Positions 5,687-44,136 of a stretch of 57,771 nucleotides of DNA are shown piece after piece. The notes beneath the pieces were generated by a model. The model ran no database searches and had not been told where the DNA came from. It was given only the letters and a program-made list of their open reading frames with translations. The translations under genes were made by a program, and so were the position numbers. The stretch is from Clostridia bacterium (GTDB lineage Bacteria; Bacillota; Clostridia; Oscillospirales; Acutalibacteraceae). Where the stretch lies: positions 1 through 57,771 of the forward strand of contig JAFYLD010000010.1 in the NCBI GenBank assembly GCA_017537245.1, in the 5' to 3' direction. Numbering within the stretch: position 1 is the stretch's first letter; every line of letters starts with the position of its first letter.

Positions 5687-6964
5687 TTATTCAGACTTTA
5701 TTTCTATTACTTCTTTTTGTGTTGGTTCTTCTGTTTTTAAGGCTTGTTTGTTTACGTACTCTCTAAACAATGCGTAAACAACCGAGCAAACAGGAACACT
5801 AAACAACATACCCCAAACGCCGAATAATCCGCCGCCAATGGTTACTGCCGCAAGCACCAAAACGCCAGGCAAGCCTACCGATTTACCAACAACCCTTGGG
5901 TAAATTAGATTTGACTCTAGTTGTTGTAGCACTATCATAAACACGACAAACCAAATCGCCATCATAGGATCTTCAAGCAATATCAAAAACGCACCAATGC
6001 CGGCGCTGATTAGCGCGCCAAAAATTGGGATTAAAGCCATAAATCCAACTATTACCGATATGATGCCTGCGTTTGGCATACCAAAAATCACCATACCGAT
6101 TAAGCATAGCACGCCCAACAGACAAGCCTCGGTAAGTTGTCCTGTAATAAAACCAGTGAAAGCATCGTTAGCAAGAGAAGAAACTCTAAATAAACGATTG
6201 GCGTGTTTTGGTTTTAAAATTGCGTTAATTGCTTTTTGGCATTGTGCGCCAAATTTTTCTTTTTGCGCGAGCAAATAAGCCGCAAAAACAAAACCTAAGC
6301 AAACGTCAATTAATATAACAAACAAACTAGCGGTCGTGTTGAAAATTGCCTTACCCGAACTGAATAAAAAATCCTTATTAACGGGTGTCTTGCCGGATTC
6401 GGTCTTTTGCGAATCTTTTCCTTCGGTTTGTGTGTTTGTCGCCTCTTTATCATCAACAATATTGTCTGTCCATGGAGGAAGTTCAATATTGTATTCGGCA
6501 AAGAAGTCGGCCGTATCGTTATAGCCTTCTTCCACGATTTTAGTATACGTTGGAATTTTGTTTACAAAAGAAACTACTGTATTGCTTACCGCAGGGACTA
6601 GCATAAACAATATTGCGCATATAACGCTAATAAACAACAGAAAACTTGTAAACAAGCAAACCGGACGTTTTAGTTTAGTGGTAACTTTTTTGTTTTTTTG
6701 TCTGCGCCATATAAAATCCCAAAAGCGCTCAATAGGGCGCAAAATAAGGTTGATTATGTACGCCAAAACAAAACCTATAATTATTGGTAGCAATACGTTT
6801 ACTACCGATTTGATAACAGAGAGTATGCTGCTAGGTTTTGCCACTACCGCATATACAAGCGCGATAATAATCGCTATCGCAAAAACGTATAGCAATAATT
6901 TTCGGTTTAAGGGCAAAGAAATTTTGATTTTGTCTTCGCTATTTGAAGTGTTTTTATCCTTCAT
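5687..6964 (-). CDS. AI-2E family transporter (PerM/YtvI type permease)
   Basis: 425 residues with about eight hydrophobic segments, a soluble loop of low complexity at about residues 150-190 (probably outside) and the family's C-terminal FGVWGMLFSVPVCSVVYALFRE. Members include TqsA and Na+/H+ antiporters; the true substrate cannot be told from the sequence. The ATG at 6964 is 2 nt from the stop of the HlyC-type gene, so the two are co-transcribed. Confidence 0.85.
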   Translation of the reverse strand: MKDKNTSNSEDKIKISLPLNRKLLLYVFAIAIIIALVYAVVAKPSSILSVIKSVVNVLLPIIIGFVLAYIINLILRPIERFWDFIWRRQKNKKVTTKLKRPVCLFTSFLLFISVICAILFMLVPAVSNTVVSFVNKIPTYTKIVEEGYNDTADFFAEYNIELPPWTDNIVDDKEATNTQTEGKDSQKTESGKTPVNKDFLFSSGKAIFNTTASLFVILIDVCLGFVFAAYLLAQKEKFGAQCQKAINAILKPKHANRLFRVSSLANDAFTGFITGQLTEACLLGVLCLIGMVIFGMPNAGIISVIVGFMALIPIFGALISAGIGAFLILLEDPMMAIWFVVFMIVLQQLESNLIYPRVVGKSVGLPGVLVLAAVTIGGGLFGVWGMLFSVPVCSVVYALFREYVNKQALKTEEPTQKEVIEIKSE

Positions 6965-6966
6965 TA

Positions 6967-8229
6967 TTATTCCTTCTCTTCTTCCTCGGTCAAATCGTGC
7001 TTTTCTACCTTTATGGTAGCCGCGCGGTGAGAATCAACCTCGGTAACGGTAACTAATAAATTTTCAAAGGTAAAGCTATCGTTTATATCAGGTATATTAC
7101 CGATTTGTTCGGCAACCCAACCGCCGACAGACACGCTATCAGACTCGGTTTTGATATCAAACTCTTCGCAAAAATCGTCAAGATTCATATTGCAATCGAT
7201 AACAAAGTTGTTTTCGTCAAGCTCTTTAAACTCTTCAACAACAACGTCGTGCTCGTCCCAAATTTCGCCAACAAGCTGCTCGAGTATATCTTCCATTGTA
7301 ACAATACCGAGTGTGCCGCCGTATTCGTCAACCACAACTGCAATATGTGATTTTTCTTTTTGAAGTTTTTTAAGCAAATCGTCAGCCATTTCAGACTGAT
7401 GAACAAAAAGCACGGGAGAAATTATATCTTTGATCGGCTCGGTTGTAACACCGCTGCCAACGTAAAAGTCTTTTTGGTGGATTACACCAACAATGTTATC
7501 GATATTGTCCTCGTATACGGGTATACGTGAAAAGCGAGTTTCGGTAAATTTTTGTGCAATTTCCTTTTTTGCCGCGTCAATAGGCAACGCCTCTAGGTCA
7601 ACACGGTGGGTAAGTATATCTTCTGCCTTAAGATCTGAAAATTCAATAGCATTTCTAAGAAGATCGCCCTCGTCGGTGTCGATATCGCCTTCTTGCTCGG
7701 CTTCTTCAACCATTAATAGCAATTCTTCTTGCGCCATATTTTCATCTTCTTCGTCCTCTTTAACGCGAACGATAAGGTCAACCAATTTTTTCCAGAGCGA
7801 GAAAATAAAATTAAGTGGCATCAAAATCCATATAAAACTACGAATAAGCGGTGCCGAGAACATTGCAAACTTTTCGGGAAAATCGTTAGCAAGACTCTTT
7901 GGTGTGATCTCACCAAAAATAAGAACTGCAACGGTAATAACAACAGTCGAAACCGTAGCACCCAACTCTTCGTCTTTAAGTTGTTGTGTAAAGACGATAG
8001 TGCCGAGTGATGCCAAAAGTATATTCACTATGTTATTACCAATAAGTATTGTAGAAATTAGTCTATCGTACTTTTCTGCGAGTCCTAATGCCAATTCTGC
8101 CTTTTTGTTGCCTTTTTCGGCCAGTGCACGAAGTCGTGTTTTATTTGCGCACGAAAAGGCCGTTTCGGTAGCCGAAAAATATGCCGAACCAATAAGGCAA
8201 ATCGCCATTATTATAATATACGTTGTCAT
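6967..8229 (-). CDS. HlyC/CorC (CNNM-type) membrane protein with CBS pair
   Basis: 420 residues. DUF21 transmembrane domain (about 1-140), cytosolic CBS pair (about 200-330) and C-terminal CorC_HlyC domain (about 340-410). Family members are often annotated hemolysin C, but the better-studied ones (Bacillus YhdP/MpfA, eukaryotic CNNM) act in Mg2+ efflux. The ATG at 8229 has AAGGAG 11 nt upstream. The transcript starts about 218 nt upstream and carries a short acidic ORF and a terminator (8305-8408), suggesting attenuation. The permease follows after 2 nt. Confidence 0.9.
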   Translation of the reverse strand: MTTYIIIMAICLIGSAYFSATETAFSCANKTRLRALAEKGNKKAELALGLAEKYDRLISTILIGNNIVNILLASLGTIVFTQQLKDEELGATVSTVVITVAVLIFGEITPKSLANDFPEKFAMFSAPLIRSFIWILMPLNFIFSLWKKLVDLIVRVKEDEEDENMAQEELLLMVEEAEQEGDIDTDEGDLLRNAIEFSDLKAEDILTHRVDLEALPIDAAKKEIAQKFTETRFSRIPVYEDNIDNIVGVIHQKDFYVGSGVTTEPIKDIISPVLFVHQSEMADDLLKKLQKEKSHIAVVVDEYGGTLGIVTMEDILEQLVGEIWDEHDVVVEEFKELDENNFVIDCNMNLDDFCEEFDIKTESDSVSVGGWVAEQIGNIPDINDSFTFENLLVTVTEVDSHRAATIKVEKHDLTEEEEKE

Positions 8230-8304: not shown

Positions 8305-8344
8305 AAAAAGGCATACCTATACTAAACCATAGTATAAGTACGCC
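8305..8344 (-). terminator. Intrinsic terminator (possible attenuator) in the HlyC-type gene leader
   Basis: On the minus strand a 15-bp stem (GGCGTACTTATACTA, 8330-8344, with TAGTATAGGTATGCC, 8310-8324, two wobble pairs), loop TGGTT and then TTTTT (8305-8309). It lies between the promoter at 8454-8482 and the HlyC-type gene, 76 nt before its ATG, so transcription must pass it. Confidence 0.75.
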
Positions 8345-8408
8345 ATTCATTATTACGTGTCAAATTATTAGTATCGCCGTTATCGTCGCTACTGTCGCTA
8401 CTGTCCAT
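8322..8408 (-). CDS. Possible 28-residue acidic leader peptide
   Basis: The ORF starts at ATG 8408 and ends at TAG 8322. The first twelve residues (MDSSDSSDDNGD) contain five Asp; the rest is polar and ends EWRTYTMV. GGGAGGG lies 11 nt upstream, the same distance as the Shine-Dalgarno of the HlyC-type gene itself. The last codons fill the 5' arm of the terminator stem, and the stop codon is the first three bases of the 3' arm, so a ribosome finishing the ORF would mask the hairpin. A hydrophobic 18-codon ORF from TTG 8416 overlaps it in another frame and is the main alternative. Confidence 0.4.
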   Translation of the reverse strand: MDSSDSSDDNGDTNNLTRNNEWRTYTMV

Positions 8409-8453
8409 TTAGACAATAACCCTCCCAAAAATATATTTTAATTAGCGAATCAT

Positions 8454-8482
8454 ATTATACCAAACACAGTATATTTAGTCAA
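8454..8482 (-). promoter_or_regulatory. Sigma-A promoter of the HlyC-type gene / permease transcript
   Basis: Minus-strand TTGACT (8477-8482), 17-nt spacer, TATAAT (8454-8459). It is a near-consensus promoter 225 nt upstream of the HlyC-type gene. Confidence 0.85.
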
Positions 8483-8489
8483 GTACTAT

Positions 8490-10238
8490 TTAAAGTATGC
8501 TCTCGGCGTCATATCTCCAAGGTATTGTGTACACGATACCACGTTCTTTTCCGTCCATCCAAGCGCGGTAGGTACGTTCAATATTCGACCACTCGTCAAT
8601 TCGAGAAATATTGTGTGCGCGAAGGTCAGTGAAAAACTGATTAATCTTTTGAGCGTCATAATTGCCGCTTAAAACCTCGTTCCAGAAAATGTCGGCAAAA
8701 CGGATCGAAAGCCTTGCTCGCTCGACGCGCATAAGACGAACTCCATCCCCTGCTACCGCGTTTTGCGCCTTGTCGAATAATTCGTTATATTTTGCAAGCA
8801 ATTCATCAGACAAATAATCAGGGCGTTTGGTATCTTGTATATACATGTGATAATTCTCTTTTTCGACAAAATCACAAAGCATATTAAGATATTCGTCAAG
8901 ATATTCTGCCGCAGCGCCATAGAAATATTCCATAAACTCTTTGCGATGAGCATCTATATCGCAATCGGGATTCCACAAGAGTTTAGAGATTAAATAGGTG
9001 CGAAGCTCGTTAAAATCAACGCCGCCGTAATAGGCGCAATTCGCCTCTTCAAAAACACCTTTTACGTTATATTTTGCCATTGTTTGTAGATTAGGTTTTA
9101 GCACTCGCCAATTTGGAAACGGCATTGGATAAAGCGGGAAGTTTGAGGTGTAATCCCATACGTAAAGTCGCTCACAAACGCGGCTCCAATCCATTAAATC
9201 CTCGATAAACAAAGTGGCTTTTCCGTCGGGGCGTTTTTGCGCACGAGAGCGGTCGTCACATTTGTCGAAAGGATGCGCAAAACAGGTACAACTAGCGCAA
9301 AGGCGCACGCAAACGTTGTGTCTAGTTTGCGTTTTCTTTGACGCAGGTCTAGTGTAGTGGTAGGCTAATATATCAAAAGTAACGTCGGGGAATTCGGGCT
9401 CTAGTATTTCGGCCACGCGGTTTACAAATTTTATAAGCGTGCCAACGGGAGATCCCTCTTCGGCATCGGATTTAAGGCAGTTTTCGCACTGGCAGCTATA
9501 TGGATTGTCGTTTTGTGAAATTGAAAGAATTTTTCTATCGGGATTTTCTTTTAAAATCTTTCGCGCATTTTCAACCACAATATCTATAAGCTCGGGATTA
9601 GTTAGACAAAGCTGCCAATGGTCGTTTTCTACCGATTGACGACGCCCGTTATAAAAAGAAAAATATTCAGGGTGTGTGTCGCGATATTCTTTGTGTGGCA
9701 CCAAAACGGCAAAACTGTGCGCGCCTAGAGCGTATCTTATGCTTCCGCCAAGCATCTCTGGTATATCGTTCCAGCGGCCGTTAATACGGCACATTGTAGC
9801 AAATTTTGAAAAACGTTTTATGCTGCTATAATCGGTGTCGCGAAATTCAAAGGTCGGTTTTTCTACTATATCGAGCTCATCGATTTTAAGCGTTGTAAGG
9901 GTTGGTATCTTTTCACAATCGGGTGTAAAGAAACGGCAACCCAACCTTTCTAAAAATTCATAACCGCCGTAAATTACGCCGCGTTTACCACCTGTTATAT
10001 AAATACTGCCATCCTTGGTTTTGATAGAAAACTCGTCGGTTTTTAGACTAGCGTCTAATTTTACGTAGATGCCGTTTTGGTCATCGTTTATCTTAACCTC
10101 AAACGGCGCTATGGTAATTCGCGCTAAATAATAGCGTAGCTGTGTTGCAATAAACCACACCTGTGATTTATTGTTTTCAAAATCTTCTTCGGGTACGCAA
10201 ATTGCGCCAAACGGCACTCTGTTTTCTGCCAAAACCAT
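8490..10238 (-). CDS. DUF4838 domain protein (glycosidase-like), copy 1
   Basis: 582 residues, no signal peptide, so probably cytosolic. The N-terminal part resembles the N-terminal domain of alpha-glucuronidase-type enzymes (GGKRGVIYGGYEFLERLGCRFF, about residues 85-106); the rest is a DUF4838 barrel-like domain with a Cys cluster (CQCENC, about 255) and tryptophan-rich stretches. Reaction unknown; a glycoside-cleaving or sugar-binding role is inferred from fold and neighbours. It starts 15 nt after its paralogue with GAGGTG before the ATG. Clearly a tandem duplicate of the next gene upstream, and the second gene of the operon. Confidence 0.75.
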   Translation of the reverse strand: MVLAENRVPFGAICVPEEDFENNKSQVWFIATQLRYYLARITIAPFEVKINDDQNGIYVKLDASLKTDEFSIKTKDGSIYITGGKRGVIYGGYEFLERLGCRFFTPDCEKIPTLTTLKIDELDIVEKPTFEFRDTDYSSIKRFSKFATMCRINGRWNDIPEMLGGSIRYALGAHSFAVLVPHKEYRDTHPEYFSFYNGRRQSVENDHWQLCLTNPELIDIVVENARKILKENPDRKILSISQNDNPYSCQCENCLKSDAEEGSPVGTLIKFVNRVAEILEPEFPDVTFDILAYHYTRPASKKTQTRHNVCVRLCASCTCFAHPFDKCDDRSRAQKRPDGKATLFIEDLMDWSRVCERLYVWDYTSNFPLYPMPFPNWRVLKPNLQTMAKYNVKGVFEEANCAYYGGVDFNELRTYLISKLLWNPDCDIDAHRKEFMEYFYGAAAEYLDEYLNMLCDFVEKENYHMYIQDTKRPDYLSDELLAKYNELFDKAQNAVAGDGVRLMRVERARLSIRFADIFWNEVLSGNYDAQKINQFFTDLRAHNISRIDEWSNIERTYRAWMDGKERGIVYTIPWRYDAESIL

Positions 10239-10253
10239 AAAAACACCTCGATT

Positions 10254-12005
10254 TTAAAGTATGCTTTCTTTTTGAAAACGATAAGGGCGATTTACGTACA
10301 CGCCGCGGTCCCAACCTTTAACCCAGCCGTAATACGTGCCTTCAAGGTTGCACCATTCATCCATTCTTGATACGTCGTGCGCACGAAGGTCTACAAAAAA
10401 CTTATTAACCTTTTCGTTATCAAAGCGTCCGCTTATAATTTCATTCCAATAAACGTCGGCAAATCGTATGGACAAACGTGCTTTTTGTACGCGAGCGAGA
10501 AGAATTCCGTCGCCCGCTACCGCGGCCTCGGCTTTGTCGAACAACTCATTATATTTTAACAACAATTCATCAGATAAATACTCAGGGCGCTTGGTTTCCT
10601 GAATATAAAGATGATAGTTTTCTTTTTCTACAAAATCGCACAACATATTTAGATACTCGTCTAAATATGGCGCCGCCGCGCCGTAGAAATATTCCATAAA
10701 CTCCTTGCGGTGAGCATCTACGTCGCAGTATGGATTCCACATAAGTTTGCAAAGTAGGTAATTGCGCAATTCGTTAAAATCGGTACCGCCTTTTTCTGCG
10801 CGGTTAGCCTCTTCGAAAACGCCCTTAACGTTATGCTTTGTTAACGTTAGTAGGTTTGGTTGTAGTACGCGCCAGTTTGGAAACGGCATTAAATATAGCG
10901 GGAAGTTAGAAGTATAATCCCACACGTAAAGTCGCTCGCAAATCTTGCACCATTCTTTAAGGTCTTCGATAAATATTGTTGCTGTGCCGTCAGGACGTGG
11001 GGTTGCGTGACTGCGGTCGGTACATTCTTCAAACGAGTGGGCATAACAAGTGCGACTTGCACACAAACGCACACAAACGTTGTGGCGCACCTTTGTTAAA
11101 TGTGACGCAGGTCTAGAGTAACTATATGCCAAAAGGTCGAACATAACGTCTGGAAACTCCGGCTCTAAAACCTCGGCAATCTTGTTTACAAAACGTATTA
11201 TAGCGCCAACGGGCGAACCCTCTTCTTTGTCGATTTTTTGGCACTCTTCACACTGACAGTGCTTTACGTTATCGTTTTGAGATATTGATACTATCTTTTT
11301 ATCGGGATTTTCTTTAAGTATCTTGCGTATATTATCTGCCGCAATATTAACGATATCAGGATTCGACAAACAAAGTTGCCACTCAACGTGACTACCGGCA
11401 TCACGTTTACCGTCAATCAGTGCGTAATATTCCGGATGCTCGGCAAAATGCTCCTCAGGTGGCACTAAGATACCAAAGCTATGCGCAAAAAGAGCGTAAG
11501 AAACGTGTCCGCCAAAGCACTCGGGTATTTTGTTACTAGAACCATTTACACGACACATAGTAGCATATTTATAGGTAAGCTTAGTTGTGTTGTGATAGTC
11601 GGTTTCGCGATATTCAAATACCGGCTTTTCACGTTTGCTAACATCCGGCAATTCAAGATTTATAATGCTTGGAATTTTCTCGCACTCGGGTGTAAAAAAG
11701 CGACAACCCAAATTTTCGAGCAACTCGTAACCGCCGTAAATAACACCGCGCTTGCCACCCTTTATAAAAAGCTTATCGCCTTGTGTTTCGAGCGAAAACT
11801 CATCGTCGGCATAGGTTTTGTCAAGAGATATGTAAATACCGCTTTGGCCATTGTCTTTTTCTATTTCAAATGGCGCAGAGGTGATTCGCGCTAGATAATA
11901 GCGTAGTTGCCCCGCTATAAACCACACTTGTGACTCAATATTTTCAAAATCATTTTCCGACACGTGAATTGCGCCAAAAGGCACTCTGTTTTCTGCCAAA
12001 ATCAT
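10254..12005 (-). CDS. DUF4838 domain protein (glycosidase-like), copy 2
   Basis: 583 residues, colinear with the protein at 8490-10238 and identical at roughly two thirds of positions by eye, including both ends (start MILAENRVPFGAI, end ESIL). It has the same N-terminal glucuronidase-like segment (GGKRGVIYGGYELLENLGCRFF) and Cys cluster (CQCEEC). The ATG has GGGGTG 5 nt upstream. It is the first gene of a two-gene operon and is divergent from the GH94-like phosphorylase. The differences are spread over the whole length, which argues for an old duplication with separate substrates rather than a recent copy. Confidence 0.75.
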   Translation of the reverse strand: MILAENRVPFGAIHVSENDFENIESQVWFIAGQLRYYLARITSAPFEIEKDNGQSGIYISLDKTYADDEFSLETQGDKLFIKGGKRGVIYGGYELLENLGCRFFTPECEKIPSIINLELPDVSKREKPVFEYRETDYHNTTKLTYKYATMCRVNGSSNKIPECFGGHVSYALFAHSFGILVPPEEHFAEHPEYYALIDGKRDAGSHVEWQLCLSNPDIVNIAADNIRKILKENPDKKIVSISQNDNVKHCQCEECQKIDKEEGSPVGAIIRFVNKIAEVLEPEFPDVMFDLLAYSYSRPASHLTKVRHNVCVRLCASRTCYAHSFEECTDRSHATPRPDGTATIFIEDLKEWCKICERLYVWDYTSNFPLYLMPFPNWRVLQPNLLTLTKHNVKGVFEEANRAEKGGTDFNELRNYLLCKLMWNPYCDVDAHRKEFMEYFYGAAAPYLDEYLNMLCDFVEKENYHLYIQETKRPEYLSDELLLKYNELFDKAEAAVAGDGILLARVQKARLSIRFADVYWNEIISGRFDNEKVNKFFVDLRAHDVSRMDEWCNLEGTYYGWVKGWDRGVYVNRPYRFQKESIL

Positions 12006-14700: not shown

Positions 14701-14985
14701 ATATTTTAAAAGCTATGATAAAGAAAAGTAACGGTATAAACGGTGCTTAGTGAGTGGCAGATAGTGTAAATGCCGCCATACGCATACCGCGAAGAACACT
14801 TTGGAGCTGCAAACCCAAAAGTCTTAACACTTAGTAGGGGCGCCGTGGGCGGCACGTTAAAGCCGATAACAGTATTGGCTGTGAGTGACTGTATTTATAC
14901 AGTAATACGGGTGGCACCGCGAGTAGTATTTATGCGCTATTCGTCCCTGATTTTTCAGAGGATGAATAGCGCTTATTTTATTTTG
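14701..14985 (+). promoter_or_regulatory. T-box leader (tRNA-Asn responsive) of asnS-asnA
   Basis: The conserved T-box GGGTGGCACCGCG is at 14909-14921. The intrinsic terminator follows: a long stem from GCGCTATTCGTCCCTGA (14934-14950) to the matching arm ending at 14972, then TTATTTTATTTT. The antiterminator base TGGC would pair with an NCCA end whose discriminator is G, as in tRNA-Asn. AAC at 14795-14797 in stem I is a candidate Asn specifier codon, but I could not fold the stem to prove it. Uncharged tRNA-Asn is expected to turn on both genes. Confidence 0.9.
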
Positions 14986-43858: not shown

Positions 43859-44136
43859 GTGAAAATTCGCCTCCTTGTTTAGTTGGCGGGCAAAACTTAC
43901 ACCGCACCGTGTGTTTCTTTTCGGTGCAACATAAAACCGGCATTTGCTGGGGTTAACGCAAATCCGGAGCAGCGACTCGCATCGCCGCGACACTGTAGAT
44001 TTCGCAAGTAATCCGTAGTGTCTCCAAGTTCTTTCGCCCGGTTTCAAATCGGACATACTCCGCGGAAATTTCCCCACTCCAGGTGGGCCACCTCCCGCAT
44101 CAACGCATGTTTTTACGCCGCATTTTCGCAGCGTGC
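43859..44136 (-). promoter_or_regulatory. Structured 278-nt leader of the S10 operon
   Basis: Between the start of transcription and rpsJ at least five stems tile the RNA: 44081-44093 (AGGTGGGCCACCT), 43990-43994 with 44017-44021 (ACACT/AGTGT), 43969-43975 with 43982-43988 (one wobble), 43937-43947 with 43958-43967 (10 bp, one bulge) and 43904-43909 with 43922-43927 (GCACCG/CGGTGC). No T run follows any of them. This fits a ribosomal-protein autoregulation leader; I do not recognise it as a known family. Confidence 0.55.

Follow-up and report, generated by a model that had tools for sequence, protein, structure and literature searches.

The leader region described here lies on the minus strand of the window (the whole stretch of 57,771 nucleotides that was analyzed), in the gap that separates a DUF4838 gene (stop at 8490) from a gene for a CNNM/CorB-type transporter (start at 8229). 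It comprises a near-consensus promoter, a Shine-Dalgarno (SD) sequence, a 28-codon leader ORF with five Asp among residues 1–12, and an intrinsic terminator of 15 bp into which the end of the ORF extends (Table 1). All of these elements had been called in the initial annotation and were recovered here, as was the DUF21-CBS-CorC_HlyC assignment of the next gene, whose product matches CNNM (PF01595), CBS and CorC_HlyC and thus has the architecture of CNNM/CorB proteins. The promoter begins 7 nt beyond the stop of the upstream DUF4838 gene, and both of its hexamers were found in 7/7 aligned sequences of the genus. The 11-nt distance between the SD sequence and the start codon had been regarded as a weak point; it is no defect, the median obtained by a similar measure for 90 leaders being 12 nt. 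The fold of the leader RNA has a z-score of −3.8, with 0 of 200 dinucleotide shuffles as stable. The hairpin predicted around the start codon was also obtained for all nine genus members folded and for few of 13 sequences from outside the genus.

Table 1 Features of the leader region and of the genes downstream of it.
Feature	Position in the window	Strand	Basis or remark
Promoter TTGACT-N17-TATAAT	8454..8482	−	11/12 match to consensus, TG before the −10 hexamer
Shine-Dalgarno GGGAGGG	8420..8426	−	11 nt ahead of the ATG (8408–8406)
Predicted hairpin, 10 bp, start codon at the loop	8397..8420	−	Folding
Leader ORF, 28 codons, MDSSDSSDDNGDTNNLTRNNEWRTYTMV	8322..8408	−	Begins MDSSDSSDDNGD; ORF translation and orthologous leaders
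Acidic segment, codons 2–12, DSSDSSDDNGD	8373..8405	−	D/E/P enrichment in residues 2–10 of relatives versus controls; proposed ribosome-destabilizing stretch
Intrinsic terminator hairpin, 15 pairs, 5-nt loop	8310..8344	−	Supported by covariation and geometry
Terminator U-tract (TTTTT)	8305..8309	−	Sequence
CNNM/CorB-type transporter (DUF21-CBS-CorC_HlyC), 420 aa, proposed regulated gene	6967..8229	−	Pfam
AI-2E family transporter gene	5687..6964	−	2 nt downstream of the CNNM gene; ORF and family match

To judge from the spacing, the AI-2E transporter gene probably shares an operon with the CNNM gene. On the upstream side, two tandem DUF4838 paralogs (8490–12005) adjoin the leader, and a DUF4838-like coding sequence precedes it, as judged by eye, in five of six aligned genus-mates. 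Elsewhere in the window, Rfam matches mark a T-box leader (14706–14951) and an S10-Clostridia ribosomal leader (44034–44111).

The CNNM/CorB protein is probably a Mg2+ exporter. In the part of the MtCorB paper drawn on here, residues S21, S25, S71 (N in bacteria), G110, E111, P114 and K115 are described as binding Mg2+ or shaping its site (PMC8242095); S15, S19, N65, G106, E107, P110 and K111, which correspond to them in an alignment read by eye, are invariant in 12/12 aligned orthologs. In Staphylococcus aureus, loss of MpfA, a relative of the CNNM protein, is reported to raise internal Mg2+ (PMC6711546, in part). The CNNM gene is the only PF01595 match in its own assembly (79.6% complete), in which an MgtE match is present and no match to CorA was found. 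The M-box (ykoK) is a leader RNA with a terminator that controls a Mg2+ transporter gene. The element described here differs in being a coding leader, and no M-box (RF00380) was detected in any of 40 genomes, its own included, in a search that was positive in Bacillus subtilis and Lactococcus lactis. In the window, RF00380 gave no match at the gathering cut-off, and no Rfam family reached its cut-off over the leader.

Constraint on the leader within the genus

Nine close orthologs of the CNNM gene (E ≤ 1e-110) were found among 70 genomes of the genus, and all nine are preceded by the leader. The sequence MDSSDSSDDNGDTNN is identical in eight of these leaders; the ninth, L008, has MDSDDSSDNGN instead. 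Codons 2–15 (8364–8405 in the window) are frozen at the nucleotide level in the window and in L003–L007, L181 and L182: 21 of 392 pairwise codon comparisons among these eight members differ (5.4%), and the lowest pairwise codon difference in 413 windows of 14 codons from the CNNM gene is 33.9%. The three substitutions found in total are all synonymous in the acidic frame, which supports this reading frame. Conservation of the acidic codons and a synonymous bias had both been put forward as comparative checks on the leader, and both are borne out within the genus.

Judged from these alignments, the freezing of codons 2–15 far exceeds what a peptide property alone would need. Across families, Ser codons in the leaders are mostly AGY, the first codon of an SS pair is usually AGT, and the AGT:AGC ratio is 80:43 in leaders versus 159:426 in genes. 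Neither the nucleotide freeze nor the AGT bias would be required by a property of the peptide alone, and both count against the reading proposed below.

Two other candidates from the same DNA were rejected. A +1-frame ORF (TTG start, 8428–8360, ...SKWTVATVATITAILII) lies nearer to the SD sequence than the acidic ORF and was found at 7/7 genus loci checked. It was rejected as the main frame because the substitutions in L003, L007 and L182 are synonymous in the acidic frame and, on our reading, residue-changing in +1; any RRY run read in +1 yields V, A, T or I. Within the genus, the acidic and +1 frames may both be coding. The conserved C-terminal peptide RYAFLRLKRVLS was rejected as a peptide signal because the same nucleotides reappear after the stop codon in L008.

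Leader starts across CNNM orthologs

From the ortholog group, 182 upstream regions were collected, of which 175 remained after seven near-duplicates were dropped; one contributing locus scan used the best 80 loci, four of which were then dropped (L032, L033 and L046 as repeats of L005, L007 and L009, and L084 because it was truncated). Three, four or five D/E/P or more among residues 2–10 of an SD-led ORF were present in 113, 79 and 37 of the 175 non-redundant regions and in 65, 47 and 23 of the first 88; these are automatic picks, with chance ORFs (L064, for example) among them. The same thresholds were reached in 12.8%, 3.1% and 0.5% of 3520 length-matched dinucleotide shuffles of these first 88 regions. 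For other genes in the same loci, the corresponding counts were 10, 3 and 0 of 108, in windows trimmed to the intergenic gap and so shorter on average than the CNNM windows; one of the three positives is the CNNM leader of L088 itself. For the MgtE/CorA importer genes of relatives, at least four D/E/P were found in 1/34 cases, also when 330 nt were searched. An apparently conserved mgtE leader, MSPTSS..QGESIPG, was rejected, being the end of a longer upstream gene that is presumably SpoVAD.

Acidic leader starts include MDSSDSS, MDSDSSDD, MDGDSSED, MDDADSDAD, MDDGADGD and MEPDDGNP, and Pro-type starts include MDEPPPSN (GTG-started), MDEPPR, MDQPPP, MDIPPL, MDDVPL, MDSVPRRRR and MEQPPSPRR. Lactonifactor longoviformis DSM 17459 (L111) is among the strains with such a leader. 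As far as sequence comparison indicates, the D/E/P property of the leader start persists far beyond the genus while the peptides change. The initial annotation had read the leader as Asp-rich; its acidic start is indeed conserved, and the property that is kept is Asp/Glu/Pro, not Asp alone. In a FastTree of 118 CNNM proteins, 37 of whose 115 inner branches are weak, the acidic and Pro labels require at least six changes among leader-bearing rows, where "acid" takes in weak MD[SGTCA] leaders with two D/E/P and "pro" takes in acidic leaders with one Pro. By the filter, 33 of the 118 orthologs have no leader, a few having been missed by it; in our own reading, the label "none" takes in the filter-missed leaders L011, L092, L098, L102 and L204.

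These exchanges bear on amino-acid attenuation, in which scarce charged Asp, Ser or Pro tRNA would stall the leader ribosome. Codons 2–12 are rich in Asp and Ser, and Pro appears in other lineages, as such a mechanism would require, but the residues swap between lineages while the gene remains that of a metal transporter. Moreover, an early stall leaves the terminator free, so that starvation would turn the gene off, and we regard this explanation as very improbable. Alternatively, Mg2+ might be sensed by an RNA element or by a nascent peptide that binds the metal directly: many leaders resemble DxDxDG loops, and the nucleotide-level constraint in the genus, the preference for AGT over AGC and the start-codon hairpin would all suit such a sensor. 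However, a DxDxDG loop is impossible for MDEPPP, MDSVPRRR and MDIPPL leaders, the start hairpin is missing from the predicted folds of most of the 13 sequences from outside the genus, and the leader matches no Rfam family at cut-off; we therefore give direct sensing by RNA or peptide equally little weight.

A strict acidic pattern searched against 245 genomes gave a single match, at CNNM, and none for the reversed control, the pattern being too strict. The MDEPP pattern gave nine matches in the same genomes, seven of them just upstream of a CNNM ortholog; its reversed control gave eight by our own count, so that only the position of seven of nine at CNNM is informative, and not the number of matches. 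With both patterns combined, 8/10 matches lie just upstream of a CNNM ortholog.

The MDEPP start, found in 16 of 90 leaders, would also suit a reading in which the signal for the same leader and terminator is not Mg2+ but a broader difficulty in elongation (EF-P, ABC-F/EttA, L31 or zinc status, ribosome-targeting drugs). With such helpers in short supply, ribosomes would pause or drop at the D/E/P codons and the terminator would win. In the parts of the papers used here, EttA is described as relieving early acidic motifs and EF-P as relieving polyproline (PMC11282234), and abortion at acidic stretches as being countered by L31 (PMC8092293). The tie of the leader to a gene of Mg2+-transporter type, seen also in the positions of the MDEPP matches, argues against this reading, which we consider unlikely.

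Leaders are uncommon outside the nearer orthologs. Among 67 upstream regions of distant CNNM genes, six of which (L114–L119) are also counted in the 175, at least three, four or five D/E/P were found in 15, 8 and 2; with 8/67 at four or more, the leader appears to be mainly a property of the nearer orthologs. Two leaders of CNNM genes outside the main group, L163 (449–565, MDEDIGDEGNSKR...KPFYYLRP) and L168 (472–573, MEDSFGEEGSRR...RPFYYPRP), are alike, acidic at the start and of the same build as the main leaders, the stop lying, by eye, in the terminator 5′ arm in L163 and directly before the terminator in L168.

Geometry of leader ORF and terminator

The relation between ORF and terminator was analyzed in 94 leaders, selected to have D/E as residue 2 together with three or more D/E/P (four or more for TTG starts), so that composition in this set is no independent evidence. 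After the ORFs of L214, L245, L256 and L259 were removed by eye, 90 leaders remained, with a mean charge of −3.0 in residues 2–10 and +2.6 after residue 20, values that are partly a product of the selection. In 73 of the 94 selected loci, a T-run is preceded by a hairpin of at most −12 kcal/mol; these hairpins are the best-scoring ones picked by a script, and part of them may not be genuine terminators. In these 73 pairs, the ORF ends inside the hairpin in 33, beyond it in 34 and within 15 nt 5′ of it in six, and in none does it fall short, giving an overlap of ORF and hairpin in 67/73. Of the 146 control readings in the two remaining frames, 35 overlap the hairpin and 84 fall short of it (overlap, p = 6e-23). 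Shuffled spacers predict 37 overlaps and 55 ORFs within reach, against the 67 and 73 observed. The start of the hairpin falls in all three ORF phases (22, 19 and 32).

Covariation in the stem, the third comparative check proposed at the outset, was likewise found. When 37 of the 73 hairpins, picked for similar build, were aligned, 11 of 13 pairs proved to have changed on both sides, and the covariation score is 0.444 compared with 0.279 for shuffled alignments, 0 of 500 of which scored as high. The terminator consensus GGCATACCTGC...GGNACAGGTATGCC-TTTTTGC is kept in the window (8310–8344) and the 37 hairpins, though the ORFs cross it in different phases.

In the window, the leader stop TAG (8324–8322) forms the first three bases of the terminator 3′ arm, as had been noted in the initial annotation; this holds for the window and is peculiar to its species. 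Relative to aligned genus-mates, a single additional base precedes the hairpin in this species, and the stop therefore falls in the 3′ arm. In seven genus-mates (L003–L007, L181 and L182) the ORF continues past the hairpin, and in L008 it stops inside it. It is the overlap between ORF and hairpin that is conserved; the base at which the ORF stops is not.

Some lineages are without a clear intrinsic terminator. No terminator of −12 kcal/mol or better was found in 21 of the 94 selected leaders, including long MDEPPR and MDSVPRR types. Six terminator-less ORFs (L072, L082, L089, L211, L218 and L249, of MDEPPR, MDSVPRR and MDSIPRR types) end 46–79 nt from the gene, an arrangement that would suit Rho control. 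The converse case, a hairpin kept with the ORF lost, had been named as one that would speak against the leader, and it is rare: L036 and L037 retain a weakly acidic ORF with the hairpin, and L064 seems to have a hairpin without a convincing acidic ORF.

A passive attenuator, or a chance ORF before a terminator, that senses nothing would agree with the existence of orthologs that manage without a leader. The enrichment of D/E/P starts, the ORF–hairpin geometry and the covariation all argue against it, and we consider it hardly credible.

Proposed Mg2+ control and known leaders

We propose, with a probability of roughly 0.6, that the leader attenuates transcription in a translation-dependent manner, with the ribosome acting as the Mg2+ sensor (an intrinsic-ribosome-destabilization, or IRD, leader). 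The same direction of control had been put forward in the initial annotation, and the comparative results support it in part. Consistent with IRD leaders, D/E/P are concentrated in the first ~10 codons of the upstream ORF, which lies ahead of a gene predicted from Pfam matches and Mg2+-site residues to encode a Mg2+ transporter. These first codons (Asp/Glu, with Pro elsewhere) would destabilize the ribosome while its exit tunnel is nearly empty. We infer that the leader is translated in vivo and that, at ample cytoplasmic Mg2+, the 70S ribosome would stay stable and translate to or through the hairpin, physically blocking terminator formation and allowing RNA polymerase to continue into the CNNM exporter gene (ON). 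At low Mg2+, drop-off within the acidic stretch would leave the hairpin free to form, and the exporter would not be made. The recurrence of the arrangement in many Clostridia suggests that the Mg2+ need of the ribosome decides exporter production.

In the sections of the IRD papers used here, D/E and Pro at early positions are named as ribosome-destabilizing residues (PMC11282234, PMC11552253), and high Mg2+ is described as counteracting IRD (PMC9718836). For the E. coli terminator tR2, nearly full repression is reported at a position several base pairs past the end of a gene (PMC4824070, in part). Against the IRD reading stands the lesser robustness of E. coli ribosomes. In B. subtilis, RNA polymerase runs ahead of the ribosome; if the same holds in these Clostridia, ribosome-mediated antitermination would be weakened.

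A mechanistic parallel is pyrL-pyrBI, where a ribosome keeping pace through the leader prevents the intrinsic terminator from forming and UTP is sensed by polymerase pausing. The proposed attenuator would work in a similar way, the leader ORF reaching the terminator in all 73 pairs as in pyrBI; it differs in its sensor, proposed to be ribosome stability in the acidic/Pro start.

By build, the leader can be compared with MgtL of mgtA in E. coli and Salmonella, which, in the descriptions available in part, is likewise a short upstream ORF with a destabilizing acidic/Pro start (EPDP) next to a Mg2+ transporter gene and reads Mg2+ via ribosome stability, as proposed here. The leaders MDSVPRRRR and MEQPPSPRR resemble the MgtL peptide. 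In MgtL, however, a Rho site becomes accessible once translation is completed, and an importer is switched ON by abortion. In the present leaders, the ORF runs into an intrinsic terminator, OFF is the state expected upon abortion, the gene is that of a probable exporter, and the hosts are Clostridia. Because a covarying intrinsic terminator overlapped by the ORF takes the place of Rho-dependent termination after completed translation, the leader can be said to work like mgtL without being a member of that family. MgtQ, in the Salmonella mgtC-mgtB gap, is similar in that a Mg2+ transporter is controlled by translation abortion, brought about by acidic residues 2 and 5; it differs, as far as the portion used here describes it, in acting on importer translation through alternative stem-loops.

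Since MgtL and MgtQ are described in this way, the sign could be the opposite of the proposed one, with completed translation leading to termination and abortion turning the gene ON at low Mg2+. In the great majority of loci (67/73), it is the terminator itself that the ORF overlaps, no antiterminator appears in the minimum-energy fold of the window's leader, and an exporter that is ON at low Mg2+ would be counter-productive. In addition, in the part of the paper cited, Salmonella corC is up at high Mg2+, as is mgpA at neutral or alkaline pH (PMC12421838). An inverted sign thus appears improbable. The proposed sign, ON at ample Mg2+, suits an exporter and is opposite to that of MgtL and MgtQ.

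We lean slightly toward the broader view that these leaders form a large new class in Clostridia, in which the ribosome would serve as Mg2+ sensor for export, selection would act on a nascent-chain property (D/E/P at the start) and not on any particular sequence, termination is intrinsic, the sign is opposite to that of mgtL, no Mg2+ riboswitch is found, and a codon/nucleotide layer (frozen GACAGTAGY) would tune drop-off. If so, the IRD principle would be used with opposite sign, and for export, in many Clostridia; the exchange of Asp runs for Pro motifs would amount to a natural mutational scan of ribosome destabilization, for which about 90 natural leaders are available for testing; and there would be a route to adjust Mg2+ export in bacteria without an M-box. 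The printed IRD-type Mg2+ leaders that we met, MgtL and MgtQ, serve enterobacterial importers. Among the matches listed from 5.39 million open-access papers, none showed a comparable leader, either for CNNM/CorC genes or in Clostridia, and the portions of motif-discovery papers covered make no mention of one.

For E. coli CorC (YbeX), early codons of a Mg2+-export gene are reported to be ribosome-destabilizing, with expression proposed to be up at high Mg2+ (Chadani 2021, as quoted in PMC12421838). CorC differs from the present case in carrying its IRD motif in the protein's own start, with no leader and terminator. CNNM orthologs that have no clear leader (L086, L090, L094–L097, L099 and L110) are often acidic at their own N-terminus, with starts such as MDEHS, MDPDSM, MDLDSAS, MDSQST and MGSDSS; MNDDT is a further start seen among leaderless CNNM proteins. 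By analogy with E. coli CorC, these N-termini are perhaps direct IRD starts.
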